Of a DNA stretch of 64,000 bases, positions 11,726 through 30,281 are shown one piece after another. How positions within the stretch are numbered: position 1 is the stretch's first letter; each line of letters begins with the position of its first letter. Under the pieces are notes generated by a model. That model did no database searches, was not told the DNA's origin, and saw only the letters and a list, made by a program, of their open reading frames with translations. Where the stretch lies: the NCBI RefSeq assembly GCF_025273675.1, contig NZ_CP045809.1:1364001-1428000 (forward strand), given 5' to 3'. The DNA is from Gordonia pseudamarae (lineage in GTDB: Bacteria; Actinomycetota; Actinomycetes; Mycobacteriales; Mycobacteriaceae). The position numbers were made by a program, and so were the translations under genes.

Positions 11726-13486
11726 ATGGGCGACGACGACAGCACGACGAGCAACGATGCCATCGCGACAGGTGTCATCGGCGAGGAACCCGCGGCGACC
11801 GCCGAACCGGGTGTGCGGGGCCGACGGCCACGCCGCGCGCGCCGACTCCTGTCCAGACGGGTGCACCGGTACAGCTTCACCGGTCTGTCGGCCGCGCTGG
11901 TGATGCTGTGGTTATCGGTGACACCGTCGTTGCTGCCGCGCGAGCCGGTGTTCCAGGGTTTGATCAGCGCCATCTCAGCGGGTACCGGCTATCTGCTCGG
12001 GACGTTCGCGTCGTGGCTGGTGCGGTACCTGATCTCCCGTGAGCGTCCGTGGCCGCCGCCGCGCCGCGAATACTGGTTCGGTCTGCTGGTTGTGGCGCTG
12101 ATCGGCACCTCGATCATGCTGTACTGGTTCGCGCGCTGGCAGGACGAGATCAGAGATCTGATGGGGATGCCCCACATGTCCTGGCACGCCTACCCGGTCA
12201 TCGCGGTCATCGCGCACGTCGCATTCATCGTACTGATCTGGCTGGGGTGGGCGTGGGGCGACGCGGTCCGCTTTCTGGCGCGCCGGCTCGACAACTATGT
12301 CCCGCCGCGACTAGCCGGTGTCACCTCCGTATTGCTCGTGCTGGTGCTCACCGTGCTCGTCCTCAACGGTGTGGTGGCCCGGTATTCGATGCGGGCGATG
12401 AACTCCTCGTTCGCCTCGCTCAACGACGAGACGACCGCCGAATCCGAACCGACCACCTCGCCGCTGCGTTCGGGAGGTCCGGGCTCGTTGGTGACCTGGG
12501 ATTCGATCGGATTACAGGGGAGGGTGTTCATCGGCACCGGGCCCACCGTCGCCGACCTCGAACGCTTCAACGGGACCCCCGCCAAGGAACCGGTCCGGTC
12601 CTACGTGGGCCTCGGCGAGGACGCCGACCCGAGGGCGAACGCGAGGCTGGCCGTCGCCGAGATGGAACGCAGCGGAGCGTTCGACCGCAAGATCATCGCT
12701 GTCGCCGGCACCACCGGCACCGGCTGGATCAACCGGTCCACCGTGGACTCGCTGGAGTACATGTACAACGGGGACACCGCGACCGTCGCCATCCAATATT
12801 CGTATCTGCCGAGCTGGTTGTCGTTCCTCGTCGACAACGAACGCAGCCGCCGGTCCGGGCAGGCGCTGTTCGAGGCGGTGTCCGCGCGGATCCGGACAAT
12901 GCCCGAAGCCCAACGGCCAAAGCTGGTGGTATTCGGCGAGAGCCTGGGTACTTCGGGCGCCGAGGCCCCGTTCAGTACCATCCCCGACATCGCGGCCCGC
13001 ACCGACGGCGCGTTCTTCACCGGGCCGATCGTCAACAATCCATTGTGGAAAGCCACCACCCGCGACCGCGACAAGGGCAGCCCGGAACGTCTGCCGGTTT
13101 TCGAGAACGGCGATCAGGTGCGATTCGTCGCCGGTCACGACGATATCGCCGAGGCCGAGAAGCGGCCGTGGCCCACCACCAGCCGTATCCTGTTCCTTCA
13201 GCACGCCTCCGACCCGGTGGTGTGGTGGGATCCGGGAACCATTTTGCGCAAACCGGATTGGCTGCGCGAGAAGCGTGGCCCCGACGTACACCCCGATGTG
13301 CGGTGGATCCCGCTGGTCACCTTCCTGCAGATCTCGGCCGACATGGTCTCCTCCGACAAGGTGCCCGATGGTCACGGCCACAACTACTCCACCGAGATCC
13401 CCTACGCCTGGCAGGCGATCCTGCGGGTCCCCGGCTGGACCGACGACAAATCCGCCCGCCTCGGCCCGGAACTGGCCCGCTACTGA
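11726..13486 (+). CDS. Integral-membrane alpha/beta-hydrolase family protein (Rv1069c-like)
   Basis: The 586-aa protein has about five transmembrane helices in residues 45-230 (for example [39 protein letters not shown] and [18 protein letters not shown]). A soluble alpha/beta-hydrolase domain follows, with nucleophile elbow [14 protein letters not shown] (GESLG, Ser nucleophile), [24 protein letters not shown] and a late His in GHGHNYSTE. This matches the mycobacterial conserved membrane hydrolase family (Rv1069c type). The substrate is unknown; a lipid or ester in the envelope would fit the location. ATG 11726 follows GAGGATC. The gene overlaps the convergent ABC-F gene by 7 bases. Confidence 0.85.
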
Positions 13487-15280: not shown

Positions 15281-15396
15281 GCGGTCAGGCCCCTGGACTC
15301 ACAGTGGTCCACCATAGACGGCGTACCGGTGCCCGGCAACCTGTTTCGTAGCAGTCAACCTGTTCTGCGGTGCGGACCGTGCGGCGCGGGCGGTGC

Positions 15397-15705
15397 TCAG
15401 GCCACGACCTGGATGTGCAATGGTGCTCGCCCGCCCGTGGGATCGGCCGGCCGGCCGGTGACGATCTCGATTCTCGCCAGGCCTGGGGAGCGTGCCCTGA
15501 TGAGTACCACATTCGGTGTGCCACTGTGTGTCAGGATCGTCCCGTCGGTGCCGACGACGGACTCGGCGAGCACGCCGAGCACCTCAACACACTCATCGCC
15601 TGTCCGTACCCCTGTTCCTGGGCATCGAAGCACATCGCCGACGCCGAGGCGGAGACGGGATGGGCGACTCTCGGGTGCGTTGGGCAACTCGATGTAGCGC
15701 GCCAT
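15397..15705 (-). CDS. Small beta-rich protein of unknown function, last gene of the large-protein cluster
   Basis: A 102-aa protein without signal peptide or membrane segment. Alternating hydrophobic patterns (RPSRLRLGVGDVLRC, ECVEVLGVLAESVVG, NVVLIRARSPGLARIEIVTG, APLHIQVVA) suggest a beta-sandwich of the Ig-like/BACON kind. ATG 15705 has AAAGG upstream, and the gene sits 31 bases after the metallopeptidase, so it is probably cotranscribed. I do not recognise a named family. An accessory or inhibitor role for the protease is conceivable from the pairing but unsupported. Confidence 0.65.
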   Translation of the reverse strand: MARYIELPNAPESRPSRLRLGVGDVLRCPGTGVRTGDECVEVLGVLAESVVGTDGTILTHSGTPNVVLIRARSPGLARIEIVTGRPADPTGGRAPLHIQVVA

Positions 15706-15736
15706 GATCGCCTTTCACATCGGAGGATGCCCATTG

Positions 15737-16684
15737 TCACGCCGGCAGGGACACGTCGTCCGCCGGATCCCAGTCGGCGGTGATCTCGACGGACCCGCCG
15801 TGCGGTGGGAACAGGGGCTTGGGATAAATGACCGCCGCCATGGCGTAGTCGACGGCGTTGATGTCGGTGCCGCCGCGGATCGGTTGCCCGTCGTAGGTGA
15901 TGGCTCCGGGCAACTGGTAGCACATGATCGAATCCTGGTCGGGTGTGGTGCCGTAGATCGTCGCGTCGTCGAGCGGGGTGAGCACCTGCTGATCGACCAT
16001 TGCCGTCGACCAGCCCTGCGTGGCGAGGAAGTACGGGTACGCCTTCGCCGGATCGATGCGCTGGACCAGTTCCCGGCGCATGTGCTCATGAGGGAATCCG
16101 AGGGTGTGCCCGGCCTCGTGCCGGACGACACGCCGGAACTCCGATTCCGGGGTGGTCATCGTGAAGCTCTGCAGGCTCATCGTCGGGCGATTGCGTGGAA
16201 TCAACGTGATATCGGTGCCGAGATAGGACCAGTGCCCGCCGCCGTCCCGTGAGATACGGACGTCTCCGCTGCCGGCGGTCTCGGCGAACGAGATACTCGT
16301 CCACAGGCTCCAGGCGTTGAGATGTGACACTATCCTGGCGCGCAGATCGGCCGGTGTCGATTCGGTGAAACTCACAGAGAGTACCCGTGGTGCCGGACCC
16401 CAATATTTCGCCGTGGTCAATGTGAGTGCCAGGGGTGAGTCCGGTGCGAGGTCACCGACCGCGACGAATTCGCGCAAGGGGGCGTTCGCGGGGTTGATAC
16501 GTGTGCTGACCTCCGCGGCCTGCTGTTGCAGCCGGGTGGGGAGTCGCTTCACGCTGCAACCCGGGAATTGTTCTCCCGCAGGAGTGTCAACCGGGACACC
16601 GTTGATTTCCGGGTTCTCGTGCAGTGCGCTGAAAGCGATTCTCTTGATCTCTTCGAGGGCGTCTTCGAGCGGGATCGTACTCAT
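15737..16684 (-). CDS. Astacin-like zinc metallopeptidase (M12-type), leaderless
   Basis: A 315-aa protein with the metzincin zinc site HEAGHTLGFPHEH (HExxHxxGxxHE, astacin-type, near residue 187) and a Met-turn SIMCYQLPGA about 50 residues later. The central region (YWGPAPRVLSVSFTESTPAD and WTSISFAETAGSGDVRISRD) matches the astacin/matrixin fold. Astacins are normally secreted as proenzymes, yet no signal peptide is visible here: the N-terminus is MSTIPLEDALEEIKRIAFSA. Residues 1-85 could act as a propeptide. ATG 16684 follows AAAGGAA. It belongs to the leftward block of large proteins. Confidence 0.85.
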   Translation of the reverse strand: MSTIPLEDALEEIKRIAFSALHENPEINGVPVDTPAGEQFPGCSVKRLPTRLQQQAAEVSTRINPANAPLREFVAVGDLAPDSPLALTLTTAKYWGPAPRVLSVSFTESTPADLRARIVSHLNAWSLWTSISFAETAGSGDVRISRDGGGHWSYLGTDITLIPRNRPTMSLQSFTMTTPESEFRRVVRHEAGHTLGFPHEHMRRELVQRIDPAKAYPYFLATQGWSTAMVDQQVLTPLDDATIYGTTPDQDSIMCYQLPGAITYDGQPIRGGTDINAVDYAMAAVIYPKPLFPPHGGSVEITADWDPADDVSLPA

Positions 16685-16905
16685 TTCCTGATTCCTTTCG
16701 TCGGTGGTGATGGCGGAATGTTCTGTGCGTTGAGAATGACTCTATGAATGCCTGTGCAGTGGCGACAGGGTAGTCGGCTACTCGTATCGGGTATCGATTT
16801 CCGGTCGGTGCCAGGTAGTTTCCGGCGGTTGATTCCGACAGATGCCGATACTCCCGATGCCGATACCCCCGATGCGGGGCGGTCCACCGGTTCGTGCGGT
16901 TGGCG

Positions 16906-18420
16906 TCAGACTTCGACGACATCGTCGAACCGGACGGTGCGACCGGGTGGGCGCAGCACCGGGGCGCGGTGCCGCTCGAGCCAGAGACACGGTGTGCCGT
17001 CGGTTCCGCGGGCGAGTTTGTAGCGACTTTCCAGATGCGTTCCGGACGAGGGGATCGTGGCGGGGGTGATCGTGTGCACGGCCTCGCCCGCATCGGTGTG
17101 CACGCGCAACACCTGGGCGGTGGGAGGGGCGATCAGGTGGGGCGGATCGCTCGACAGATCGGCGACCGCCCGCTGCACGAAACGCGGAATCTCGGAGTCG
17201 CGGTCGATCTCGTACGGGTGCCAGTGCACCTGCGGGGCGATACCGGCCAGGTACCGGTATCGCCGGGTGCCCGGATCGCCGGCTCGTGGTTCGGTCCGCG
17301 GGTGCTCGTCCGGTGCCGGAGCCGCGGGTGCGTCGGGTTCGGTCACGTCCTGGCCCGCGATGCGCCGCTCGACTGCCCACAGCACGTTCGCGTACTCGTC
17401 CATCCCGAACAGGACGTCATCGAGAATCGGTCCTTCCAGCGGCGTCACCGCGCGAAGCCACAGCACCAGAGACCGGACGTCGGCACCTGTCGTTGTGAAC
17501 ATGGACCAATCGTCGACCGGAGCCGTCACGGCGGTCCGGTCGCCGAACGAGTCGGTGACGGTGATCGAGGCGTCCGGCAGTGTCGCGACGTGACCGACCG
17601 GGACATCGATCGGGAAGACGAACCAGTCATCGCCGTGGGTGCAGATCAGTTCGATCAGCAGCGCGGTCACCGGGTGCGCGCTGTCGGGCGGATACCCGCC
17701 GATGTCCACAGCGGCATCCTCGAACTCCCACCACCGGCTCACCGGTGCACCCGGATAGTGCAGGGGCGACGGCCGGCCCTCCCGGTCCACGCGGTCACCG
17801 GCGAAGTACGCGGACGAGGCGTCGGCGGTGACCCAGTCGACGTCCCCGCCCCGATGTCGGACGACGCTCAGCGTTGCCGAATCACTCTCCGGGTCACCCG
17901 TCGGAAATTGCGTCGCATACACGAGTTCGTCCGATTTCCAGGCAGATTCACGAGTGCGGGGCACGCCGAGGGCGTCGAACTCGGCGTCGGGGATCTGCAG
18001 TGCCGCACGGCGGCGCCAGATAGCGAGCCCGTCCGGCCGATCGATCAGGTGATGGTAGGGCGGCGGTGGGGTGAATCTGTCGGTGTGTCCGATCGTATAT
18101 CCGTCGGCGATCCGGGCTCCGATCCGCAGGCGTCGGCCTGTCGTCCACCAGCTGTCGGGATGGTCCTCGATGATGGATTCGGCCGGGATCCGGGTGGGAT
18201 CGGCGGCAGGTGCGACCGGGCTCGCCATGATGGGTGTGGTCACCAGCGAGTAGTCCACCCGCACCGGAGTGGCCGCGTTCTCGCCCTGGAATTCGCCCAT
18301 CTGCCACTGCCGGGTGAGAAACCACAGCGGATCGTGGATCCGGGCGGCGAATCCCGCGGCGAAGTCCGACTTCCGGGGATGCGGGTCGATACGCAGATGG
18401 TGCTCGATTGTTGTTTGCAC
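16906..18420 (-). CDS. Large-protein cluster component, 504 aa, unknown function
   Basis: The protein opens with MQTTIEHHLRIDPHPRKSDF, then FAARIHDPLWFLTRQWQMGEFQGENAATPVRVDY. The latter is a WFLxRQWQMGEFQGE block that I recall as conserved in uncharacterised proteins from actinobacteria and other phyla; that recall is not verified. No membrane helices, signal peptide or enzyme motif is visible; there are Trp-rich segments (DSWWTTGRR, RWWEFEDAAVDIGG) and a proline/acidic linker (EPDAPAAPAPDEHPRTEPRAG). GTG 18420 has GGAGG 7 bases upstream and is 39 bases after the 1,493-aa gene. It probably works with that protein, since they are adjacent and in the same direction. Confidence 0.7.
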   Translation of the reverse strand: MQTTIEHHLRIDPHPRKSDFAAGFAARIHDPLWFLTRQWQMGEFQGENAATPVRVDYSLVTTPIMASPVAPAADPTRIPAESIIEDHPDSWWTTGRRLRIGARIADGYTIGHTDRFTPPPPYHHLIDRPDGLAIWRRRAALQIPDAEFDALGVPRTRESAWKSDELVYATQFPTGDPESDSATLSVVRHRGGDVDWVTADASSAYFAGDRVDREGRPSPLHYPGAPVSRWWEFEDAAVDIGGYPPDSAHPVTALLIELICTHGDDWFVFPIDVPVGHVATLPDASITVTDSFGDRTAVTAPVDDWSMFTTTGADVRSLVLWLRAVTPLEGPILDDVLFGMDEYANVLWAVERRIAGQDVTEPDAPAAPAPDEHPRTEPRAGDPGTRRYRYLAGIAPQVHWHPYEIDRDSEIPRFVQRAVADLSSDPPHLIAPPTAQVLRVHTDAGEAVHTITPATIPSSGTHLESRYKLARGTDGTPCLWLERHRAPVLRPPGRTVRFDDVVEV

Positions 18421-18459
18421 GGTTGGCCTCCGGACTTGTGGGGTGACGGTTCGTCCCGG

Positions 18460-21400
18460 TCAGGCGGGCAGATGGAACGAGGTATCGATGTCGAGCGAGA
18501 TGCCGTGGCCGAGTTGTCCGCGCGCGGCGATCATCGCCGTTCCGATCGCCGCCTGGTAGTCGCCCATGTCCTGTATTCGGGCCGCACGGGCATGCACGCC
18601 CAGACGGGTGTCGGCGACCACCTCGACAAGTTGTTGCTCGTCGAATTCGGCACCGAACGATCCGAGGGACGGCGGTACCGCGATGAGTATGGCCTGCGGT
18701 GCCCGTGCCCCGGGCGCGTCGAAACCGAAGGCGGCCGTGGTTGTCTGTCGGCTTCTCGGTGCGGATTCGGTCCATGAGTCGACCAGGCCCACAGCCAATC
18801 GTCGGTCCGCCAGACCGTCGAGGGTGACCTCGGCGGTGGAGAACGCGGCGACAAACCGTTTGATCATGCCACCGGGTTGGGTGAGATGGTGCTGTTGATC
18901 GATGAACTCGGCCAATGCCTTGGTCTGCCAATGGTCTTGGGGCGCGTTGCTCCAGGCGATCGACAGCGCCGGGGCCGGTTCGAATTGTGCGGCCTCGATC
19001 CGTGCCATGTGCGGGCGGACAGCGGCCACCGTCGCGAGCCAGTCGTCAAGATCGTGATCCGGAGTGCGGACGAGCTCGCCGAGGGCCAGTAGGTTCTGCA
19101 CCGACACCGTTGACAGCACTGCCAACGTTCCCTCGGGAGAAGCCAATTCGGAGATCGCGGTCGCCAGTGACTCGTCGGCGCGCGGCAGGTCGCGGCCGGG
19201 GCCGGGGGCCGGGAGCGTCGGTGCCGTGGCGATGCGGTTGCCGAGTGCCGACCTTGCCTGATCGACGAGTTCGGCCAACGCCGCGTCATCGATGATGGTC
19301 GATCCGGCGGGTGGTTCGACGCCGAGCGTCACGGCCCGCACCGATGCCGTGACGTCGGAATCGGTGTGTGGCACAACGCCCCACAGCAGGGCGGTGAACA
19401 GTGCCGCACCCTGGGCCCGGCGGTCGCCGGTGATCGCCTCGGCGAGTTCGGCCGACGCCGTGGTGGCCGCCGCCCGCAGCGCCGTGTAGCGCCCCAGTAG
19501 GTCTTCGATGATCTCGGCGTCCAGCGCGGAGATAACGTCGGCGTCGGCGTTCGTGGTATCGGAGACGATTTCCGAGAAGAACGCGGGTCCGCCGAGCGAG
19601 GTGACGAAGTCGCGGGCGCGACGATGCATCTGAACACCGGAACTGTGCTCGGCGACCTCGTCCACGCCGAGCCTGCACGCGGCCAGGCCGGCCAGCGTCT
19701 CCGACGAGAGCAGCGTCGCGTCGATGGGGGACAGACCGAGATCCAGCAGGGACACCGCTCGCGGCGGCTGCCGATCATCGGCGGTCCAGGTCCATGCCTC
19801 CGCTGCACCGATCCGCGATTCGAGTGCGGCCGCGACCGACGGATCGGCGAGTGTCGCCGGGCTCGGCGACCCGGGTTGGCCGACCGGCACTATCGACAGC
19901 ACGGTGGTGCGCAGGGGGTGCGCGGTGAGGGGGGTTCGAATCGAGTTCAGCGTCGGTGGAGGTGCCAGGCCCGCGGCCGCATCCATGACCGCACCCGCGG
20001 CGTCGGGACGGCCACAGACCACCTGATGCACGCCCTCGGCGATGAGCAGGTCTGCGTAGGCGTCGAGAGCCTGACGGAGTGCTTCGAGGCCGCCGCGTCG
20101 GCTGTCGGACATCGGTATCGGCGGGACCGAACCGGGAGGATTCAGTAGCCCGGCCAGCGCGGCCGGTCCATGACAGACGGTTGCGGCGTCCTCGCGGCCG
20201 CGCCGCATAGGAAACTTCCCGCGTACCTGCTTGATGTCGTCCTGGTCGGCGATGACGCGTTCGACCTGCCGTCCGATGGCCTCGAACGGGTGGCAGCCGA
20301 TGCGGACATCGTCGGCTATCTCCCCGGCGAGGCGGACCCGGGCCGAGTCCAGTCGCATCGACCAGCGATCGGCGTCAGTGGGATCCTCGGTCGCCGACGA
20401 CACCGCCGCGTCGCGCAGGATCGCCGCGGTCAACGCCTGGGCGTGCGAGGGCGCATGTACGAGGCCGGGCGACGTGGTGCGGGTGGCGGGACGAATCGGG
20501 CCGTCGACCCATCCGAACGCGCCCAGGCGGTAGCGGGTCGACGGTGCCCCGGCGAGGGTTCGCAGGCGGCGGGCGGCCATGGCCGTGAACCACGGATCGA
20601 TGCGATGGGTCGCGGTGTCGAGAGTCGCCCGCAGCGCACGCTCCACATCCGGGATGATTCCCGGGGTCGCGAGCTCATGGGAGAGTTCGCCGAACGAGCG
20701 GGGGAGCGTCTCGGCGATCAGCCGGGCCTGCGATTGCGCGGTCGCGGTCGCACTGTTGCGCTGTGCGTGCATCAATGACTGCCAGAGGATCCGAACGAGC
20801 AGACTGTCGGGCATGAACTGACGCTCACCGCCCTGTCTTCCCCACATGACCGGGGCGCGCGAGCCGAACCGGGCGATCTCCTCGACGATCCGGGCCATCG
20901 CCTCCCCGACCGGGATCGGCAGCACCCGATGCCCCTGATCATCCCGCTCCCAGGAGAGATCTTCCCATTCCGGCCACTGCGTCGGAACCACCAGCGGCAG
21001 GGTCAGTTCGTTGAAATCGGCCGTACCGAGCAGTGGAATCGCAACCTGCCGACCCAGGTACGCCTTGCCGGCCGACGCGTAGAGCTCGCCGGCCCGGTCG
21101 GCGATACCACTCGGGTCCAGCCCTACCGTGGTGTACAGGTTCGCCCAGTGGCCCGGCGACAGGAACGGCCGATAGGTGTAGGCGTGCGACACCCCGTCCG
21201 CTCCGATCAACTCCATGAGCTGTTCGGTGGTCGCGCCCACAACCGTCGGGTGATCCTGTGATCGCACGGCATCGATGGCGCGGGAACGTAATTCCCACAG
21301 AACGTCGCGGATGTCCGGCTCGCACCGGCCGTCGGGTTCGTCGGTGTCGACCTGCCAACGGCCCATCGTGGAGGTGGGCAGGATGCCGTACGGCTGTTCC

Positions 21401-22941
21401 GCGATCCGGATGGGCGGGATCGGCCCCTGCGGTGCGAGGTTGTCCATCGCCCAGATGCCCAGGGCGTCGCTGTCGTCGCCGAAGCCCCACAGATCACGAA
21501 AGTGGTGTCCCCACAGCGTCGGCCAGGCGCATGTCACGAGCAGGCGGTCCAACCCCGTCGGCCCGCTGTTTCCCGGGACCGGTCCGAAGCCGTCGGGCCG
21601 TCCAGTCAGCGCCGACGCAAGATCGCCTTCGCCGTATCCGCCGTCGAGGCGTCGCCGCATGAGTTGGTACCAACCCTCAGGGTCGGAACCGAGGTCGGTG
21701 GTCGCCGCACCGTCGACGGCGTTGGTGGCGGTTCCCAGCGCGACACGAGCCAGTTCGCCGGAGTCGGCCAGCTGAGCGAAATGATCCGCGGGATCGGACG
21801 CCCCGATGCCCACCGCGTAGATCGCGGATATATCGGAGGGGGTGGCGCCGTCGGGCAGCGTGCAGGTCACTCCGAGTCCGGCCTGACATGCGGCATCGAA
21901 GGACATCCACCATCGGTCCTCGTCGGCGAAGTGATCCCCGTCGATCCCGCCGGCGGCGAACGCGTCCAGCACCAGGGCCGAGGTGTCGATCGGGGCGGTG
22001 GTAGCGATCAACCGCGGCTCACTGCCGGTGAACTCGCACCAGATTCCGATAGTCTCGGGCAGCCCGCCGACACGGTTCGGCGGAACGTCGTGGTCGACCG
22101 GTGGCTTCTCGGGGGTCACCGTGACGACACCGCCGTCGACTGTCGTCGCGAAGGTCCCGGCCAGCCAGGCGGCGCGGGCACCGCCGACCTGGTGGCACAG
22201 GGCTTCCCAGGGAGCGAGGGCATACTTCTCGTGCGCCGGCCACGTGGACACCGGCAACGCCCGGACCGCCTCGTCCAGACTGTCGTGGAGGTGCTGCCAG
22301 AACGCTTGCAGCAGTTCGATCTCGGTGGCCGTGGGATCGGGGTCGTGCCGAAGCACACTCGCCTCGTCGGGGATGATCCGCAGACGCATGGTCGTGGTCC
22401 CGGCCGGATCTGCGTCGAACTTCGTCTCCAGACGCAGCGGCATCATCACCGCGACGTCGCGCCACAACGCGGGGCGGGCCTCGGCCGGTTGGGCGAGCCG
22501 TTGCGCGCGGGCTGTGGCGAGGAGTACCCCGGTGGCGGCCGGGCCGATTGCGGTGATCACCGTCGTGACCGGTGTACCGGGTCCGAACACTATGTTTCCC
22601 AGTGCTTTCCACTCCGTATCGGTGACCGTCGGCCGGCGATGCGGGCCGGTCGCTAACCGGTGGACCGGGTCCTCGGCGAGCGCCGCCCGGGCCTCGTCGA
22701 CCGACCGTCGGCTCAACCACTCGATGAGGGCGAGTTCACCCGCAGAGTCGGTCCGCTCCTGCGCGGCTGCGCTCTCGAGATCCTCCAGTTCGCGCCGCAG
22801 ACGGGGCTGCAGCGACGTCAACCAGGGCCGGTCGGCGATGGGCAGGGGTCGCGTCGTGATGGGGCCCTTCCCCCCGACGAATACCGAAAGGCACTCTCGC
22901 AGTGCGGCCACCCGTGCGTCGAACAGGTGTGTGCTGGTCAT
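18460..22941 (-). CDS. Giant 1,493-aa protein of unknown function, core of the large-protein cluster
   Basis: This is the largest gene in the window. It has no signal peptide or transmembrane helices. An N-terminal helical part includes RPALWRDVAVMMPLRLETKF and MRLRIIPDEASVLRHDPDPT, then IPPIRIAEQPYGILPTSTM (about 510-530). Long helical segments follow, ending in EQQLVEVVADTRLGVHARAARIQDMGDYQ. The LPxRLETRF ... PDE and RxxxQPYGxLP blocks recall very large uncharacterised proteins of actinobacteria and other phyla. Size, lack of motifs and cytosolic character suggest a structural or scaffold role, but no function is assigned. ATG 22941 follows AAAGG; it starts 15 bases after the IS-split gene. 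Confidence 0.75.
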   Translation of the reverse strand: MTSTHLFDARVAALRECLSVFVGGKGPITTRPLPIADRPWLTSLQPRLRRELEDLESAAAQERTDSAGELALIEWLSRRSVDEARAALAEDPVHRLATGPHRRPTVTDTEWKALGNIVFGPGTPVTTVITAIGPAATGVLLATARAQRLAQPAEARPALWRDVAVMMPLRLETKFDADPAGTTTMRLRIIPDEASVLRHDPDPTATEIELLQAFWQHLHDSLDEAVRALPVSTWPAHEKYALAPWEALCHQVGGARAAWLAGTFATTVDGGVVTVTPEKPPVDHDVPPNRVGGLPETIGIWCEFTGSEPRLIATTAPIDTSALVLDAFAAGGIDGDHFADEDRWWMSFDAACQAGLGVTCTLPDGATPSDISAIYAVGIGASDPADHFAQLADSGELARVALGTATNAVDGAATTDLGSDPEGWYQLMRRRLDGGYGEGDLASALTGRPDGFGPVPGNSGPTGLDRLLVTCAWPTLWGHHFRDLWGFGDDSDALGIWAMDNLAPQGPIPPIRIAEQPYGILPTSTMGRWQVDTDEPDGRCEPDIRDVLWELRSRAIDAVRSQDHPTVVGATTEQLMELIGADGVSHAYTYRPFLSPGHWANLYTTVGLDPSGIADRAGELYASAGKAYLGRQVAIPLLGTADFNELTLPLVVPTQWPEWEDLSWERDDQGHRVLPIPVGEAMARIVEEIARFGSRAPVMWGRQGGERQFMPDSLLVRILWQSLMHAQRNSATATAQSQARLIAETLPRSFGELSHELATPGIIPDVERALRATLDTATHRIDPWFTAMAARRLRTLAGAPSTRYRLGAFGWVDGPIRPATRTTSPGLVHAPSHAQALTAAILRDAAVSSATEDPTDADRWSMRLDSARVRLAGEIADDVRIGCHPFEAIGRQVERVIADQDDIKQVRGKFPMRRGREDAATVCHGPAALAGLLNPPGSVPPIPMSDSRRGGLEALRQALDAYADLLIAEGVHQVVCGRPDAAGAVMDAAAGLAPPPTLNSIRTPLTAHPLRTTVLSIVPVGQPGSPSPATLADPSVAAALESRIGAAEAWTWTADDRQPPRAVSLLDLGLSPIDATLLSSETLAGLAACRLGVDEVAEHSSGVQMHRRARDFVTSLGGPAFFSEIVSDTTNADADVISALDAEIIEDLLGRYTALRAAATTASAELAEAITGDRRAQGAALFTALLWGVVPHTDSDVTASVRAVTLGVEPPAGSTIIDDAALAELVDQARSALGNRIATAPTLPAPGPGRDLPRADESLATAISELASPEGTLAVLSTVSVQNLLALGELVRTPDHDLDDWLATVAAVRPHMARIEAAQFEPAPALSIAWSNAPQDHWQTKALAEFIDQQHHLTQPGGMIKRFVAAFSTAEVTLDGLADRRLAVGLVDSWTESAPRSRQTTTAAFGFDAPGARAPQAILIAVPPSLGSFGAEFDEQQLVEVVADTRLGVHARAARIQDMGDYQAAIGTAMIAARGQLGHGISLDIDTSFHLPA

Positions 22942-22956
22942 GGGATTGCCTTTCTG

Positions 22957-24399
22957 TCACAGAAGACCGTGGGCCAGCAGGTCCCGGCCGTTGAAGGCGA
23001 CCCGCGTCGGTGTGTCGACGGTCGCCGCGGCAAAGGCCGCCGAGGTATCACCGGCGTCGGCGGCCACAGCGGTGGGGGCGCGGAAACGCAACTCCGCCGG
23101 CGGCTCGTCGAGCACCAGCCAGTAGTCCTTGAGATCGGTGGGCCGGATATCGAACGAAAAGAAGACGATGTCCTTGGCAACGGTTCCGGTGAAGTTCGGG
23201 CCGATGAATTCGCGTGCGGCGCGCGCCTGTTCGCTCGTGGCGGCCTGCGGGTAGGTCAGTACCGGTGTCTGGGCCAACTTCGCGTCGATCGAGCCCGGTG
23301 GTTGCGGCGCAGCAGGTGTCTTGACCAGGTAAACCAGCGTCTTGGGATACCGCCGGAACAGATCGGTGCGGAACACCAAAACCAGGTCGTTGTCCTGATC
23401 GTCGTCGCCCGGCTGGGGCACCTGATGTGACGGCGCACCGAGGGGGCTGTCGGCCGGCCAACTCCCCACCTCGCGGATATCGGCGACCCGCAGGCCGGTC
23501 TGATAGTCGACATGACGCCAGAAGGTGAGCAACGGTGTCGTCGACCGGTCGATCGGGATGTTGCGCCAGCGCATCTCATCCATCAGTTGGGTGTTGAGGC
23601 CGATCAGAAAGGCGTCGATGAACATCGGGTTGGTCTGCATCGCCACAACGGAATCCTTTTCCAGCTTGCCGACGCCCGGCAGCAGCCACTCCGGCTCACG
23701 ATCGCGCAACAGGATCCAGGTTGCGTAGTCGACTCCGGCCGGATACTCGGGCGGGCGCAGGTCATCGATGTCGATCCCCCTGATACGGCCGCGTACCCTT
23801 CGGCGGGCAGGGGCCTGTACCGAACCCGGATCTAGTGCTTCGGTGATGATGCCGGCGACATCGCCCAGGTCCGGCGCGCGGCAGTCGGAGGGACGCGGTT
23901 CGGGCAGCAGGCCTACAAGGTCGACGAGGCGACCGTCGAAATCCAATGGGAGCCAACGCCGCAGGACGGCCACAAGCACCGGCCACGACAACGGTGAACC
24001 CTGGTACCGGTCGAGGTGGTAGGTATCGTGGGGCCGGACCCCGGTGACGTCTGCGACGACGGTCCGAAATCTGTCGATGAGGTCGACGTACCGCGGGTCG
24101 GAGCGGTCGACCGTCATGCCCTCGAGTTCGGCCATGGCGGCGGCGATTTCCTCGGGGATCGGTGTGATCCCGGCAAGCCTGCGCACGTCCTCGCCCATGA
24201 TCGTGTCGATGGCCGGAAAGCCGGCCGACGGGGGCGGCTGTTCGTTCGGGCATTGATTGATCGTGCCGATGACACCCGCACGCGTGACGACCTCGCCGGA
24301 GTGTCGGGTGCGAGCGGTGCGTGGCCGCAACATCCGTCGCGCGGCAGTGGAGAACACCGCGGCGTCCAGCGGGCTGTCCGGGCCGGTGATCGCCGCCAT
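22957..24399 (-). CDS. 3' part (480 aa) of the IS-split large cluster protein
   Basis: The frame is open from ATG 24399 but continues upstream, without a stop, through YAGLDPTHGTA to the left end of the IS256-family element. The start lies inside protein-like sequence (AMAAITGPDSPLDAAVFSTAARRMLRPRTA) with no ribosome site. This is best read as the C-terminal half of a protein whose N-terminal half lies beyond the IS (25837-27108). Visible features are PEYPAGVDYATWILLRDREP, NPMFIDAFLIGLNTQLMDEMRWRNIP and TDLFRRYPKTLVYLVKTP. The function is unknown. Whether this half is translated separately is uncertain; it is 15 bases upstream of the 1,493-aa gene. Confidence 0.65.
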   Translation of the reverse strand: MAAITGPDSPLDAAVFSTAARRMLRPRTARTRHSGEVVTRAGVIGTINQCPNEQPPPSAGFPAIDTIMGEDVRRLAGITPIPEEIAAAMAELEGMTVDRSDPRYVDLIDRFRTVVADVTGVRPHDTYHLDRYQGSPLSWPVLVAVLRRWLPLDFDGRLVDLVGLLPEPRPSDCRAPDLGDVAGIITEALDPGSVQAPARRRVRGRIRGIDIDDLRPPEYPAGVDYATWILLRDREPEWLLPGVGKLEKDSVVAMQTNPMFIDAFLIGLNTQLMDEMRWRNIPIDRSTTPLLTFWRHVDYQTGLRVADIREVGSWPADSPLGAPSHQVPQPGDDDQDNDLVLVFRTDLFRRYPKTLVYLVKTPAAPQPPGSIDAKLAQTPVLTYPQAATSEQARAAREFIGPNFTGTVAKDIVFFSFDIRPTDLKDYWLVLDEPPAELRFRAPTAVAADAGDTSAAFAAATVDTPTRVAFNGRDLLAHGLL

Positions 24400-24431
24400 C
24401 GCGGTGCCGTGGGTGGGGTCAAGTCCCGCGT

Positions 24432-25836
24432 AGTGGTGTAACTGGTTGTGGTCCTTCGTAGGTGGTCAGGCGGGTAGTTGGATCAGTGGGTCGGTGTTCA
24501 CCTCCGGTGTGTGGTCGGTGTCGGTGACGGTCAGTCGGCAACGGCTGAGCACTTCGAGGCCGAGGTAGCGGCGGCCTTCGGCCCATTCGTCGGTCTGCTC
24601 GGCGAGCACTGCGCCAATGAGACGGACGATGGCATCGCGGTTCGGGAAGATGCCTACGACGTCGGTGCGGCGCCGGATCTCGCGGTTGAGTCGTTCTGTG
24701 GGGTTGTTGGACCAGATCTGGCGCCACACGTCATCAGGAAACGCGGCGAATGCCAGCAGGTCTTCACGGGCGTCGCCGAGGTGTTCGGCCACGTCGGGTA
24801 GGCGGTCTTCGGTGTATTCGAGCAGCCGGTCGAACTGGGCATTGACCGCACCAGCAGTGGGTTGGTCATAGACGCTGTGCAGCATGGCCTTGACTGCTGG
24901 CCACATCGACTTCGGACACACCGCCATCAGATTCGCCGCGTAATGGGTGCGGCAGCGTTGCCAGGCAGCTCCCGGTAGGTTCGCTGCGATCGCCTCGATG
25001 AGCCCGGCATGGGCATCGGAAGTCACCAGGCGAACTCCGCCCAGGCCGCGGGCCACGAGGTCGGCGAAGAAGGTGTTCCACGAGGCTGTGGTCTCACTGG
25101 TGGCGACCTGCATGCCGAGCACCTCACGATGACCGTCACCGTTGACTCCGGTAGCCAGCAGCACGACGGCTTTGACGACCTGCTTGTTCTCGCGGACCTT
25201 GATCGTCAACGCATCCGCGGTGACGAACGTGAACGGGCCGGCCTCGTCCAGTCGGCGGTGACGAAACGCGGCAACCTGTTCGTCGAGGTCTTCGGCCATG
25301 CGGGAGACCTGCGACTTCGACAACGAATCGATGCCCAGGGTCTTGACCAGCTTGTCCATCCGGCGGGTCGAGACCCCGGCGAGATAGCAGTCAGCGACCA
25401 CGGTGATCAGCGCGGACTCGGCGCGTTTGCGGCGTTCGAGCAACCACTCGGGGAAGTAGGTGCCCGACCGGAGCTTGGGCACGGCGACGTCGATGGTGCC
25501 TACGCGGGTATCGAGGGGTCGGTGGCGGTAGCCGTTGCGGTAGTTGGTGCGCTCTTCGGACCGGCGGCCCCATTCGGCGCCGCACACGGCGTCGGCATCC
25601 GCAGACAGCAGGGCGTTAATCACTGTCTGCAGCAGCTCGCGCATCAGATCCGGTGACGCGTCGGTCAGAGCTTGGCTCAACAGGCCGGCCGGGTCGACAA
25701 TGTGGGGTGCGGTCATCGTGATGACTCCATTCGAGGATTCTGTGAGAGGTTGACTCGAAGGATCACACGGTGACCGCTTCCCTGCCCGACAGCCACACGC
25801 TGCCGGCCACGGTCCTGGTCACCGAGTTACACCACT
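24432..25836 (-). mobile_element. IS256-family insertion sequence interrupting a cluster gene
   Basis: The element is about 1.4 kb. Its termini share the inverted repeat AGTGGTGTAACT (24432-24443, and as AGTTACACCACT at 25825-25836), extended imperfectly inward. It contains one IS256-type transposase. The flanking 8-mers do not match, so the usual 8-bp target duplication is not seen. This suggests a later deletion or recombination at one end. The element splits a single large gene, whose halves lie on both sides in the same orientation. Confidence 0.88.
24466..25716 (-). CDS. IS256-family (IS1081-like) DDE transposase
   Basis: A 416-aa transposase of the Mutator/IS256 superfamily. The catalytic acids are in FVTADALTIKV (Asp), RLVTSDAHAGLIEAI (Asp) and NPTERLNREIRRR (Glu). 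It has the family context CRTHYAANLM (C-x2-H) and the N-terminal ERTNYRNGYRHRPLDTRVGTIDVAVPKLRSGTYFPEW block. It is full length and intact, so the element is probably still active. It lies in the same orientation as the interrupted gene. Confidence 0.95.
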   Translation of the reverse strand: MTAPHIVDPAGLLSQALTDASPDLMRELLQTVINALLSADADAVCGAEWGRRSEERTNYRNGYRHRPLDTRVGTIDVAVPKLRSGTYFPEWLLERRKRAESALITVVADCYLAGVSTRRMDKLVKTLGIDSLSKSQVSRMAEDLDEQVAAFRHRRLDEAGPFTFVTADALTIKVRENKQVVKAVVLLATGVNGDGHREVLGMQVATSETTASWNTFFADLVARGLGGVRLVTSDAHAGLIEAIAANLPGAAWQRCRTHYAANLMAVCPKSMWPAVKAMLHSVYDQPTAGAVNAQFDRLLEYTEDRLPDVAEHLGDAREDLLAFAAFPDDVWRQIWSNNPTERLNREIRRRTDVVGIFPNRDAIVRLIGAVLAEQTDEWAEGRRYLGLEVLSRCRLTVTDTDHTPEVNTDPLIQLPA

Positions 25837-27108
25837 CTATGGGGCACTACTGTGGGTGGCCCGCATCCGTCGGAGGAGTGGGCTCAGGACATCGACTTGC
25901 CGGGCCCGATCCGACGGCAGGTGCCGGGCCAGCGATGAGGCGCCGTGGTGCAGTCCGAATGCCAGAGTGGATACCAGATGTGCGGCGAGAGGCAATGATC
26001 CGAGCTGGGTCATGACTGCCTCCACGAGCCCGTCCTGGGCGTCGCGGCCCATGCGGATGCCCAGTGACGCGGTGGCCCGCAGGCGGGGATCGGCGTTGAG
26101 GGCGGCCCCCCATTCGGTGGTATCGGGATCGGCGGCCCAGACCGAGCCATACCGCGCGAACCCGGTCACCTTGCGTCCCAGCGGATCGACGGCGGCTTCC
26201 AGGGACTCTCGGCGCCTGACCAAGTCGGCGGCGGCCTGTGCCGCGTTCAGCACCTCGGTTGTGTCGTCGGCGGCCAGACCGGTGATCGCTCCGCGTAGGT
26301 GGAGGTTGACCGCGTCGGCATCTGCCTCGGAGCCGCCACGTACGTACGTCAACGGCGCGCGACCCAGACCGCCGGCCCGTCCGAGCCGGATCGCACCGGC
26401 GAGGGTCTCGAAGTCGCCGGCGTCCCCGGTGCTGAAACTCCAGGAGAACATGAGCCGCAACCGCACTGCGGCCTGGTTCGTAGGGGAGGCCCAGGCTGGG
26501 CCCCCGCTGTCGTCGAACGCCGCCACGACCGCGGCCACATAGTCGGTGTCGGCGGCCAGAACGTCGTCGTCTGTCGCCGAACCCGGCGCGACCTGCGGAC
26601 ACACCAGTCGGGAGATCTGGTGGCCGCCCTCCTGTTGCACGTGCGCCCAGTTATGGGAACGCCGCTGCAGATCGAGACCCTGTAGCGAACTCGCCGGTAC
26701 CGTGATCACACCTCGCGCCCGGTCGACGACGGCTTCGTCACGTCGGGCGACGATCAGCACGATCCACGGACGGAGCCTCGCGCCGTGCGCCAACGTCGGC
26801 GAATACTGCCACGGCAGCGAGGGGTCAACGAAGTCGACGTGCACCATCTTGGTGGTTTCGGCTCCGGTGGAATCGGCCGCCGGCGCGCAGCGCAGGACGC
26901 TGCGCGGATCGATGGTGGCGATATCCCGGGCGCCGATGAGCGTGAACGCGGCGTTGCCGGTTGCCGGCGGATGCCCAGGCTCGCCGTCGTCGGTCAGCGA
27001 CAGCGTGACCCGGCCCGTCAACCTGCCGTCCGTCAGCGTTTCGGAGCCGACCAGGTCGTAGATTCCGGACCGGCTCCAGCTCAGGAACCTGATCTTGTCA
27101 GCGGTCAT
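25837..27108 (-). CDS. 5' part (423 aa) of the IS-split large cluster protein
   Basis: ATG 27108 is preceded by AAGGAG and lies 15 bases after the DUF6603 gene, so this is the true gene start. The protein runs MTADKIRFLSWSRSGIYDLV to LSPLLRRMRATHSSAP and then stops at a TAG created exactly at the IS terminus. Features: PWQYSPTLAHGARLRPWIVLIV, QISRLVCPQVAPGSATDD and WGAALNADPRLRATASLGIR. No signal peptide or membrane helix. Joined with the 480-aa half it would form a protein of about 900 aa. The function is unknown; the insertion has probably inactivated it or created a truncated form. Confidence 0.75.
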   Translation of the reverse strand: MTADKIRFLSWSRSGIYDLVGSETLTDGRLTGRVTLSLTDDGEPGHPPATGNAAFTLIGARDIATIDPRSVLRCAPAADSTGAETTKMVHVDFVDPSLPWQYSPTLAHGARLRPWIVLIVARRDEAVVDRARGVITVPASSLQGLDLQRRSHNWAHVQQEGGHQISRLVCPQVAPGSATDDDVLAADTDYVAAVVAAFDDSGGPAWASPTNQAAVRLRLMFSWSFSTGDAGDFETLAGAIRLGRAGGLGRAPLTYVRGGSEADADAVNLHLRGAITGLAADDTTEVLNAAQAAADLVRRRESLEAAVDPLGRKVTGFARYGSVWAADPDTTEWGAALNADPRLRATASLGIRMGRDAQDGLVEAVMTQLGSLPLAAHLVSTLAFGLHHGASSLARHLPSDRARQVDVLSPLLRRMRATHSSAP

Positions 27109-27123
27109 CTCGAACTCCTTCGC

Positions 27124-29214
27124 TCACAGCGCCACCGCGACATCGGAGGCGGCAATCGCGACCCCGCCCGACCGTTGTGAGCACAGGCGTGCCTGAACCG
27201 ACGAATCCTCGGTCGCCGAGACGACTCCGCCTGGGGCCAGGACGACGAACGTCTCGATGGAAACGCGGACCGCCCGATCCTGTGCGGCGACAGCGGGGGT
27301 GAAAGTGCTTTCCCACAGCGCCTCGACGAGTCCGGGTACGCCGTATCCCCGGAAAGTTCCCCCGGGGATCAGCAGTTTTCGCGGGAGCTTGACCACACGG
27401 ATGTTCAGGTTCGAGTCCCTCGCGTCGCCCGAGGTCGCCACCGCCGGTGCGGTGAACGTGATGCCGCCGGGCAGTTGCTCGAAACCCGCGTTGTTCATCA
27501 GCTCCGAGCTGTCGCACGAGGAGAAGGACGCCGGGCTGAACCATTCGCGGGCGGATTCGAATACCGGTGCGGGCGTGCCCGGTACGGGGACAACCGACAA
27601 TCGGTGTCCGGTTCCGGCGAGCGGAGCGTTCTCCAGCCGCTGGATGTCGACGCCCAGCGGTACCCGCCTCTGCGTCCATTTGAGTGTCCCGGAGGGGTAG
27701 AGCAGTGCCCGGTTCGCCGGCCGGGCGACATCGGTGCGCAGCCGCACTGCCCGGTCACCGCCGGAGGCCACGAGATTCTCCGGTTTCGGCAGTTCTCCGG
27801 CGATCGCGTCGATCACGCTGGGGATGGCCGTCACCGAATCGCCGTTGCGGGAGCCGAGAGTGAAAGTCGCGCTGCCACAGACACGAACGAGAAGAATCTT
27901 GACCGAGGCCCGGGCATGGATCACGAGCGGACCCGGCCCGGTGAGGCGACCGGACACGTCGACGCTCGCCAGACTCCTGCCGAAGACGCGGACCGCGAAA
28001 CCGGCCGCGAACTCGACATCAAAGGTGAACGGCTTGAACGTTATCAGGGTATCGAAGTCGAAGTAGCCGTCCGCGCTCAACGGCCCGAGCCGCATGCCCG
28101 CCTGGACATGGGCGCCGGCCTGGAGTGTGTTCGGGGTGAAAGCGGTGTACATCTCCAATCGGAGAAAGGCGCCGACCGGGGCTTCGAGCGCCGCGCCTAC
28201 GCGGGGCACGGCCGGCAGCGTGAGCGGACCAGGATCGAACCGCGGGTGAAATCCGCCGATGGTCAGGAGTACATACGGATCGGGGCCGTAGTACATGCGC
28301 AGCGCCATCCCTCCGGTGAGGCGGAAGATCTGTAACGCATGAGAATTGACGAGTTGCGCGTCCAGTGAGACCAGCTGTCGTTGCAGGTCGACCTCACCGA
28401 CGAAGTCCATTCTGAGAAACAGCAGCGCGGCGTTCTCGTTCGCGCCGATGAGCACCCGCAGACTGCCGATGATGATGATCTTGGCCGGCCCGGGCAGCTC
28501 GATCAGGATTCCGGCATCCGCCCGGATGATGGGCTTTATCCAGCTGAGTTGAAAGGTGGGGCCGACGATGACGCGCCCCTGTGCGCTCGGAAAAAAGTGA
28601 CTGAGATCGTCGAGGATGGTCGGCGCGTTCTTGACGGGGTCCTCGCAGAACAGTACGTTGCCGACCGCCCCGCCGGCGAGTCGCTCACGCATCAGATCGG
28701 TGTTCGCGGTCCGGTTGACGCCGATCAGTCCCCCCACCCCGGTCACTTCGAATCCGAAACCGATCTGAATGCCGGGGGCGAATCGGGCGCCGAGCACCGC
28801 CAGAAAACTCGGGATCCGGTCGACGCGGCCGATGATGAACAGTCCGGTGACCTCCACGGGCCCCAGGTCCGCGGCGATCGCGCCGAGCCACTCGTCGATC
28901 GGGGGCTCGTTCCGGTGCCGCAGGTATCCGCCTGCCGTCACGCCACCCAGGTCCAGACTCACCCGGGCGCCGGTCGGCGGGTGTGCCTGGACCTGCGGTA
29001 GCAGTCTGAGACGGCCGGATGAGAACTTTAGGGCAACAGTGGATTTCAGGACCATATGTTCGACGGTGACGGTTACGCCGGGTGGGCCGCCGGAGAAGTC
29101 GATCCCCATCTCGGCGCCGAGTTCGACGTCGAGGCGATTGTCGTGGCCCGTCCGGACATCGACGACGAGCACGATGTCGGTGCTCATGCCGGAGGAGTTC
29201 GTCGAATCAGTCAT
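27124..29214 (-). CDS. DUF6603-domain protein of the large-protein cluster
   Basis: This 696-aa protein matches my recollection of the DUF6603 family: GFGFEVTGVGGLIGVNRTANTDLMRERL, a FFPSAQGRVIVGPTFQLSW block, GIGGFHPRFDPGPLTLPAVPR-like TIGGFHPRFDPG, then YTAFTPNTLQAGAHVQAGMRLGPLSADGYFDFD. The long alternating hydrophobic pattern resembles an extended beta structure (outer-membrane or lipid-contacting beta sheets), but there is no signal peptide. ATG 29214 starts 26 bases after the preceding gene; ATG 29187 is an alternative. The C-terminal third (about 500-696) is a separate soluble region. The function is unknown in any organism as far as I know. Confidence 0.75.
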   Translation of the reverse strand: MTDSTNSSGMSTDIVLVVDVRTGHDNRLDVELGAEMGIDFSGGPPGVTVTVEHMVLKSTVALKFSSGRLRLLPQVQAHPPTGARVSLDLGGVTAGGYLRHRNEPPIDEWLGAIAADLGPVEVTGLFIIGRVDRIPSFLAVLGARFAPGIQIGFGFEVTGVGGLIGVNRTANTDLMRERLAGGAVGNVLFCEDPVKNAPTILDDLSHFFPSAQGRVIVGPTFQLSWIKPIIRADAGILIELPGPAKIIIIGSLRVLIGANENAALLFLRMDFVGEVDLQRQLVSLDAQLVNSHALQIFRLTGGMALRMYYGPDPYVLLTIGGFHPRFDPGPLTLPAVPRVGAALEAPVGAFLRLEMYTAFTPNTLQAGAHVQAGMRLGPLSADGYFDFDTLITFKPFTFDVEFAAGFAVRVFGRSLASVDVSGRLTGPGPLVIHARASVKILLVRVCGSATFTLGSRNGDSVTAIPSVIDAIAGELPKPENLVASGGDRAVRLRTDVARPANRALLYPSGTLKWTQRRVPLGVDIQRLENAPLAGTGHRLSVVPVPGTPAPVFESAREWFSPASFSSCDSSELMNNAGFEQLPGGITFTAPAVATSGDARDSNLNIRVVKLPRKLLIPGGTFRGYGVPGLVEALWESTFTPAVAAQDRAVRVSIETFVVLAPGGVVSATEDSSVQARLCSQRSGGVAIAASDVAVAL

Positions 29215-29240
29215 GGTGGCTCTCGCTTTCACGATCGTTC

Positions 29241-30092
29241 TCAGGTGCCACGGTGGTTGAGAACGAAAGAGGGTTCGCCCGATGCTGGCAATGTATATGC
29301 GGGACTGTATTGTTCGTCGATTGTCCTTATGTCGATCACGGTGCCCAGGATTCCGAGCATCGATCCGAAGTCGACGTGCGCGCGGACCCCGGCGTCGGCG
29401 GCCGTGTTCGGCGAGCCGAGGCCTGCCGTCAGCGAATAGCACTTCTCCGACGGGGCGGGGGTGCTGTTCAATGCGAGGGTGAGCCTGGCTCGTCCCGTGG
29501 TCACGGCAGCCGGGGAACGACCGAGATCCGGTAGGCCGTCGTAGAACAACCCGATATCGACGGAGACGTCGCCGTCCGGAGGTGTGGGCGGACTGCCGAA
29601 CTCGAACACCCACCCGCAGGTCCCGTCGGCCTTGAGTGTCAATCCGAACATGCTGTCCTGCTGCGGAATCGAGACATCCAGTGCCTGGGTGATGTCGAGC
29701 AGCAGCCCGCGCTTGAGGGTGGGGTCGCTCTCGTCGCCGACAATCGCCAGGCCCAGTGTGGCAGCGGGAGCAGGGCCTTCGGGGGTGTAGGTCAGCGTCA
29801 GCGTTCGCACCCAGCCCGGCGGCTTCCTGGCACCGACCCTCATGTGGTCGTGATCGAGTTCGGCGATGCGCACGAGGAGAAATACCAGCAGCGACCACCA
29901 ATCGGGATTGTCGGTGATCTGCTTCAGGCGTTCCTTCGCGGTGTCCGGGAGGTCCCGGACATCGTCGGTGAGCGTTCCGACCTGGTCGAAGAGATCCGTG
30001 AGCTGCCGGGAACCGTCGGCGCCCGCCTTCGTCGCGGCGTCCAGCAGCTGGGCGAATGCCGTCTGGAGATTGTCGGGGTTGATCGGTGGCAT
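29241..30092 (-). CDS. First gene of the large-protein cluster, 283 aa, unknown function
   Basis: An N-terminal helical segment (NLQTAFAQLLDAATKAGADG, QVGTLTDDVRDLPDTAKERLKQITDNPDWWSLLVFLLVRIAELD) precedes a beta-rich part (GWVRTLTLTYTPEG, LGLAIVGDESDPTLKRGLLLDITQ, GTCGWVFEFGSPP). I do not recognise a family. Because it directly precedes the DUF6603 gene (26 bases), it may supply a partner domain for it. ATG 30092 is chosen with GGAG 10 bases upstream; an in-frame ATG 33 bases earlier is possible. It is the promoter-proximal gene of the leftward block. Confidence 0.65.
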   Translation of the reverse strand: MPPINPDNLQTAFAQLLDAATKAGADGSRQLTDLFDQVGTLTDDVRDLPDTAKERLKQITDNPDWWSLLVFLLVRIAELDHDHMRVGARKPPGWVRTLTLTYTPEGPAPAATLGLAIVGDESDPTLKRGLLLDITQALDVSIPQQDSMFGLTLKADGTCGWVFEFGSPPTPPDGDVSVDIGLFYDGLPDLGRSPAAVTTGRARLTLALNSTPAPSEKCYSLTAGLGSPNTAADAGVRAHVDFGSMLGILGTVIDIRTIDEQYSPAYTLPASGEPSFVLNHRGT

Positions 30093-30281
30093 GACTTCAC
30101 ACTCCACCCGCCACCGGCCGGTCACGCGAGTAGAGAGCTACCTGTCTTCTCCTGCGGCGCTACCCGAACCGCCATCCGGTGACGGGGCTGGTCCGCGTAC
30201 GCGTGACGGCCGGTGACGACACGAGCGCGAGATCGGTGAGGTGGTGTGGGACCGGCCGCGCCCGTTCACTAGCGTGGAGGC

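Follow-up and report, generated by a model that had tools for sequence, protein, structure and literature searches.

The question raised by this locus is whether a block of genes for very large proteins in the chromosome of Gordonia pseudamarae forms one system, and what that system might do. The block is located in the window, by which we mean the whole 64,000-nucleotide stretch analyzed here (positions 1364001-1428000 of the single-contig 5.15-Mb genome). Four of its genes, all on the minus strand, are the subject of this report. D (27124-29214, 696 amino acids from the start that we chose) encodes a DUF6603 protein. A is interrupted and is present as an N-terminal piece, A1 (25837-27108), and a C-terminal piece, A2 (22957-24399), each defined by an open reading frame (ORF) and by alignment to an intact A. 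B (18460-22941) encodes a giant core protein of 1,493 amino acids, and C (16906-18420) encodes a core protein of 504 amino acids with a strongly conserved DPLWxLxRQWQ(L/M)GE block. We found that D, A, B and C are one co-inherited system, and we regard their linkage as settled.

Linkage of D, A, B and C

Relatives of C were searched with tblastn in plasmid and phage records and with a profile in a collection of contigs from one genome per species. In this collection, which covers many phyla, C relatives were confirmed in 390 of 458 stretches, and the best 80 of the 390, a choice that favours closer relatives, were taken as mapped loci. Using profiles of D, A, B and C built and mapped over loci L021-L113 and the window, we found that the core order is D-A-B-C on the same strand. 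Among the 94 C loci, B was directly upstream in 92, A in 87 and D in 74, and B and C formed a single reading frame in L083, L096 and L100. The hosts belong to ten bacterial phyla in the C tree and also include haloarchaeal plasmids. The 14 plasmid records with C matches are from Streptomyces, Nocardia, Paraburkholderia, Rhizobium and Gemmatirosa and from the haloarchaea Natrinema, Salinigranum, Halalkalicoccus and Halobellus.

Most of the missing partners corresponded to sequence ends. Only 258 bases were available upstream of C in L099, and the five loci with B and without A had less than 3 kb of upstream sequence. Of the 13 loci with A and without D, eight (L051, L052, L076, L080, L081, L092, L104 and L105) start inside A or fewer than 400 bases upstream of it. 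For the remaining five (L068, L084, L093, L101 and L112), which have a complete A, DUF6603 was found in every host genome searched. The module of L068 (Phycicoccus) is rearranged, with a D copy downstream of C. By coordinates, D lies just past the fetched end on the same strand in L084, L093 and L101, with an extra ORF between D and A, and just upstream on the opposite strand in L112; the matching coordinates indicate that D is presumably on the same contig as A in these four loci. L023 has a lone C with 18 kb of upstream sequence, and DUF6603 was not found on the whole plasmid.

Several additional genes were seen within the module. In L084, L093 and L101, a common ORF lies on the side of A toward the end of the fetched sequence, and a gene may thus stand between D and A in these loci. 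An extra gene encoding about 320-340 amino acids is located between A and B in eight loci (L081, L091, L092, L095, L098, L104, L105 and L109), mostly from Nitrospira, and falls into two sequence groups of six and two. The host genome of L093 (G477) has three DUF6603 matches, and some hosts therefore hold several D genes.

We then analyzed the phylum set of 396 genomes, which was not chosen by the C motif, although the C profile itself was built from motif-selected loci. DUF6603 was present in 12 genomes and C in 10, and both were present in 8, against a chance expectation of 0.3 (hypergeometric P 1.6e-12). In these eight genomes, D and C were on the same contig in five, 7.8-9.1 kb apart, and on different contigs in three. 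The two genomes with C and without D (G328 and G365) are both fragmented assemblies. B, searched with a single sequence, was found in seven genomes of the set. Within the genus, DUF6603 was found in 2 of 59 genomes, those of the window and of congener G004, and C was found in the same two among the 37 genomes searched. G004 has D-A-B-C in order. A third congener, G027 (L006), has a 299-amino-acid ORF with an 82-residue partial match to C, possibly a remnant. Among plasmids, D was found in 15 records and C in 14, with 13 shared, and the only C-only record was from S. anthocyanicus. The first-pass annotation, made from the letters of the window, had named repeated co-occurrence of the families in a constant order as support for one system, and both the order in the C loci and the co-occurrence in the phylum set bear this out.

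The four families also diverge in parallel. When their pairwise distances were compared, Mantel rho was 0.83-0.92 across the six family pairs, while the best of 500 permutations gave 0.18-0.37. For five close pairs and four genes, all 20 ratios of nonsynonymous to synonymous substitution rates were below 0.4, indicating purifying selection on all four families. The C tree (59 rows) had 18 phylum-label changes against a minimum of 9, a count to which losses, paralogues and mis-binned contigs may add. Because phyla are mixed in the tree, plasmids carry the module, its distribution in the genus is patchy and an empty site exists in a congener (see below), the module seems to be transferred as a whole between many bacterial phyla and haloarchaea.

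DUF6603 occurs without C in 4 of the 396 phylum genomes, and three of these revealed a second architecture. In these three (L142-L144), D is followed by a protein, A', that resembles A in its first part alone (hhalign probability 88-97), and then, where B-C would stand, by a giant protein, E, which is whole or in pieces and has 1,226 amino acids in L142. In the fourth genome, G401, D is on a contig of 3,388 bases. In the comparisons made, E was not detectably similar to either B or C. Relatives of E were found in eight plasmid records, including those of Streptomyces clavuligerus, Embleya, Paenibacillus polymyxa and P. sonchi. The four E plasmids that were opened had A' and E in 4 of 4 and D in 3 of 4, with no D seen in L152 (P. 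sonchi). Both D-only plasmid records are from Embleya and both carry E, which in one record is separated from D by about 4.5 kb. The D query from the window missed DUF6603 genes annotated beside E in two plasmids, and D is therefore under-counted for the second architecture. In our reading, D and the head of A are a chassis, and B-C and E are exchangeable modules. On the P. polymyxa plasmid p-YT9A (L151/L154), genes for phage baseplate assembly protein V, DUF4280 and a GH-E nuclease were seen roughly 8-14 kb upstream of D-A'-E.

The block in the Gordonia chromosome

The chromosome flanking the block is ordinary and contains ksgA, ispE, two ABC-F-type ATPases, prfC, rplY (L25), prs, glmU and mfd. 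For the empty-site comparison we used G033, whose ABC-F protein is the closest match among the genomes of the genus. The DNA homology of G033 stops at about window position 15302 and picks up again at about 30264, with about 122 bases between, compared with about 14.96 kb here; the block is therefore an insertion of about 15 kb. The inserted stretch (15303-30263, no strand assigned) is defined by these breakpoints, and its insertion into an otherwise conserved backbone, called Rv1008-Rv1021-like in the first pass, is supported by the empty site and the genes around it. No integrase was recognized among the block proteins in Pfam and NCBIfam, no tRNA gene was found near the block edges, and the stretches compared held no flank repeats longer than 11 bases. 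A promoter and terminator scan of the block gave no more than shuffled sequence. Outside the block, a 586-amino-acid ORF on the plus strand (11726-13483), between the two ABC-F genes, had no NCBIfam match at E 1e-10.

With A taken as one gene and the small ORF S included, the block has seven genes. Their ORFs, minus-strand orientation and gap sizes, as first described, were confirmed by coordinates: 26 intergenic bases separate X from D, 15 D from A1, 15 A2 from B, 39 B from C, 221 C from P and 31 P from S. Codon-position GC followed the pattern of genuine genes in X, D, A1, A2, B, C and P, and did so more weakly in S.

Gene A is cut by an IS256-family insertion element (24432-25836, minus strand). 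In alignments with the intact 898-amino-acid A of L034, A1 corresponds to residues 1-400 and A2 to residues 401-896, each at 44% identity. The idea that A1 and A2 are two natural genes was rejected, since both match successive parts of the single L034 gene; what had been read in the first pass as split proteins of about 900 amino acids is one interrupted gene. An A in two adjoining genes is present in Rhizobium lusitanum L025 and Halobellus L033. The transposase of the element (24466-25716) matched NF033543 with 342.5 bits (cut-off 150), and the arms of its terminal inverted repeat are at 24432-24448 and 25820-25836; no target duplication was recognized by eye. The genome has 10 full-length copies of the element, including the one in A, at 91-100% identity. 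Since four of the other copies are 99% identical, the insertion in A is probably recent, and the element has probably been active recently in this genome. Because A is interrupted, this strain's copy of the module may not work; it is probably either damaged or working with A in two pieces.

The leading gene of the block, X (29241-30092, minus strand), encodes a protein of 283 amino acids without a named family. A homologue of X is located immediately upstream of D in G004 (E 1.9e-25), and no significant match was found in the other ORFs of L001-L113. The idea that X is the missing N-terminal part of D was not supported: a first match over 54 residues (probability 46) vanished when the G004 homologue was added, and X is not detectably equivalent to the N-terminal part of D in other loci. 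S (15397-15705, minus strand, 102 amino acids) had no relatives in Pfam, NCBIfam, PHROG and PADLOC scans or among the ORFs of L001-L113.

The remaining gene, P (15737-16684, minus strand, 315 amino acids), encodes an accessory metallopeptidase. P is a metzincin, astacin-like by a weak profile score (PF01400, 26.8 bits, cut-off 22.5), with the sequence HEAGHTLGFPH at residue 189 and SIMCY at residue 252; the patterns for the zinc motif and the Met-turn were written from general knowledge. Homologues of P that are 52-57% identical were found in Fischerella and Paraburkholderia plasmids, and the 57% identical homologue in P. caribensis is about 648 kb from C of the same replicon. There was no match to P in 60 other genomes searched, no homologue of P or S was found in the fetched region of G004, and the metzincin pattern was found beside no C locus other than that of the window. 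The first-pass proposal that a protease is a component of the system was thus not supported, and we rejected a protease as a core part, since P had no match in the 60 other genomes, its P. caribensis homologue is remote from C and subtilase-like genes occur in a minority of loci.

Other neighbours of C were similarly variable. The downstream census covered 95 of 127 same-strand ORFs that passed a codon-position filter (two of them with later starts), which misses genes, and its family counts refer to the 25 commonest of 179 families; 25 ORFs upstream and in the A-B interval were also scanned. Peptidase_S8 matched 12 of the 95 downstream ORFs. Subtilase profile matches adjoin C in ten loci, of which six are in the C tree, all within one seven-row clade, and four are outside the tree. 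In L068, from another clade, two tandem subtilase-like genes stand between C and the downstream D. The serine motif was present in 2 of 8 S8-like sequences checked (one of them cut by a contig end), and because both are the L068 pair, many S8-like neighbours may be inactive or divergent. Genes or domains of cyanovirin-like lectin, lamin-tail, peptidoglycan-binding, kelch, WD40 and pentapeptide-repeat types were seen in some loci, none of them constant. The proteases and other neighbours of C are optional riders.

The core proteins and what they might do

In Pfam and NCBIfam, the only families above cut-off among the block proteins were DUF6603, Astacin (P) and the transposase, in agreement with the first-pass statement that no enzyme motif apart from the metallopeptidase is present. 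The DUF6603 assignment of D was upheld by PF20248 (334.3 bits, cut-off 27, E 1.5e-99, profile positions 22-500 of 502), an entry described as of unknown function. The scanned members of A, B, C and E gave no Pfam hit, and for B a search of Pfam, NCBIfam, PHROG and PADLOC returned nothing at an E value of 1 or less. In a sequence-profile search of the PDB, the best E values were 0.16 for C and 0.075 for B, while A and D had no match within E 1.

The structure model of D (predicted local distance difference test score, pLDDT, 78.8; predicted template modelling score 0.63) has a long antiparallel beta meander at about residues 81-457. From residue 210 onward, hydrophobic and polar residues alternate in each of the 14 strands tested, and the model predicts D to be a long amphipathic beta-sheet. 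The matches of D in Foldseek and VIA included ApoB100 chains, with template modelling scores (TM-scores) of at most 0.21 over the query, and superposition on outer-membrane beta-barrels gave root-mean-square deviations above 10 angstrom. The model of a B homologue, a confident one (pLDDT 82.7), had no Foldseek match at E<1 and no convincing fold in the PDB or in a viral model library. Foldseek and VIA thus gave no usable family for B or D, which need not mean that their folds are new. A profile built on the C-terminal part of B picks up a second, internal stretch of the same protein as well (the regions are at residues about 283-412 and 949-1486 of the window B), which hints at internal duplication. 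A joint alignment of the C-terminal part of B with C was dropped, as the B rows fell onto the C half.

A simple hydropathy scan, rather than a dedicated predictor, found no signal-peptide-like start or clear membrane helix in the window proteins, as the first pass had also reported. D was borderline at 1.63, and 32 of 40 D relatives exceeded 1.6; we ascribe this high hydropathy to the beta-strands.

These observations are consistent with the following account. The products of D, A, B and C would likely assemble into a single large complex, with A linking the D module to an exchangeable partner, B-C or E. The predicted amphipathic sheet of D, which lacks a recognized signal peptide, might be the part that contacts lipid or membrane, and the machine might then act on a membrane or a hydrophobic ligand. 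It could be a soluble assembly, made in the cytoplasm and acting after release, with a role in conflict or competition. We favour such a role over housekeeping because the module is mobile, patchy and independent of envelope type. To the account as a whole, a horizontally moving D-A-B-C system whose complex acts on membranes or lipids in conflict, we give a probability of roughly 0.45. Tentatively, and a little less firmly, both architectures may be versions of a hitherto undescribed class of modular mobile giant-protein machine of Bacteria and Archaea, in which a chassis of a lipid- or membrane-contacting D and the head of A carries one of two or more giant modules that are unrelated to each other, such as B-C and E, and has spread in both forms between phyla.

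The long alternating strands of D and the ApoB100 chains among its Foldseek and VIA matches could also point to intracellular handling of lipids or hydrophobes. D would then act in the cytoplasm as a beta-groove or belt, carrying or wrapping lipid or other hydrophobic cargo, while A, B and C would provide the scaffold; the module would serve niche adaptation rather than as a weapon. The lack of signal peptides by hydropathy and of any toxin gene recurring in the flanks scanned fits this explanation. However, the ApoB matches were no better than those to unrelated porins, with very low TM-scores, and no lipid-metabolism family was prominent among the 25 commonest families of the flanks scanned. 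We consider it rather unlikely, although it survives best of the alternatives.

Since the module is patchy, mobile and often plasmid-borne, and STAND, NB-ARC and CHAT genes stand near it in some actinobacterial loci, it might instead encode a large cytoplasmic sensor/effector complex for defence against phages or plasmids. We judge this improbable: none of the eight block proteins matched a PADLOC family at an E value of 1 or less, the core proteins scanned had no recognizable killing domain such as a nuclease or NADase, and the STAND, NB-ARC and CHAT neighbours did not recur among the downstream ORFs scanned (nSTAND1 in 1 of 95). In Streptomyces plasmids L027, L029 and L150, NB-ARC, CHAT and CATRA conflict-system genes were observed within about 15 kb of the module.

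Slightly less probable still is a surface layer or extracellular coat. Haloarchaeal members with annotated surface (BGTF) and lamin-tail domains and a peptidoglycan-binding domain in one upstream Streptomyces protein would suit a surface location, but the window proteins lack signal peptides by hydropathy, the genes are patchy and the extra domains are limited to some lineages.

A virus- or injection-derived particle, such as a phage tail-like or contractile device, is very improbable despite the fixed order of the giant proteins and the presence of the module in one unannotated, unverified 'Bacteriophage sp.' fecal scaffold (1 of 50,697 phage records), for there was no PHROG match below E 0.05, the IMG/VR scan for C confirmed 0 of 31 pattern stretches, B had no viral fold match at E<1 (the three negatives on which we rejected a phage origin), and tail, sheath and baseplate families were not among the commonest families of the flanks scanned. 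The scaffold itself (L026, MT835531.1) holds the end of D together with A, B and C and is probably a misnamed bacterial contig.

Comparison with known systems

Of the core proteins, only D was assigned to a known family, and none of the searches matched the module to a known protein machine. In the open-access literature we found no mention of DUF6603 or PF20248 and no described system with the parts of D-A-B-C; most subscription journals and preprints were outside this scope and may contain one. PF20248 applies to D alone, and the other partners are outside Pfam in the members scanned. Three of the four core families thus have no Pfam match in those members, yet C is present in 390 stretches, in many phyla and on archaeal plasmids. 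If the complex is real, it would represent a new type of machine in microbes, and its assembly can be tested directly because of the constant gene order, the fusions and the two architectures.

Four kinds of known system invite comparison. In ApoB/vitellogenin-type lipid belts and bridge-type lipid-transfer grooves, a long antiparallel sheet has one hydrophobic face. D resembles them in its predicted long antiparallel sheet with one hydrophobic face and in its weak ApoB fold matches, but its TM-scores do not exceed 0.21 and it has no sequence relation in the PDB; we know of no partners like A, B and C in ApoB-type or lipid-transfer systems. Compared with outer-membrane beta-barrels, the D model deviates by more than 10 angstrom and D shows no signal peptide by hydropathy, and the hosts of the module include monoderms and archaea. 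Whereas no toxin domain or immunity gene was recognized in the core, the module is like polymorphic toxin and other conflict systems in being mobile and patchy and in having giant proteins and recurrent subtilase-like neighbours. Contractile injection systems (the extracellular contractile injection systems and the type VI secretion system) are multi-gene and mobile, with large signal-peptide-free proteins and a fixed core with variable riders. D-A-B-C is likewise a multi-gene, mobile module with large proteins that lack signal peptides by hydropathy and with variable riders around a constant core. Sheath, tube, baseplate and ATPase families were not found in the eight block proteins at the sequence level (Pfam, NCBIfam and PHROGs).

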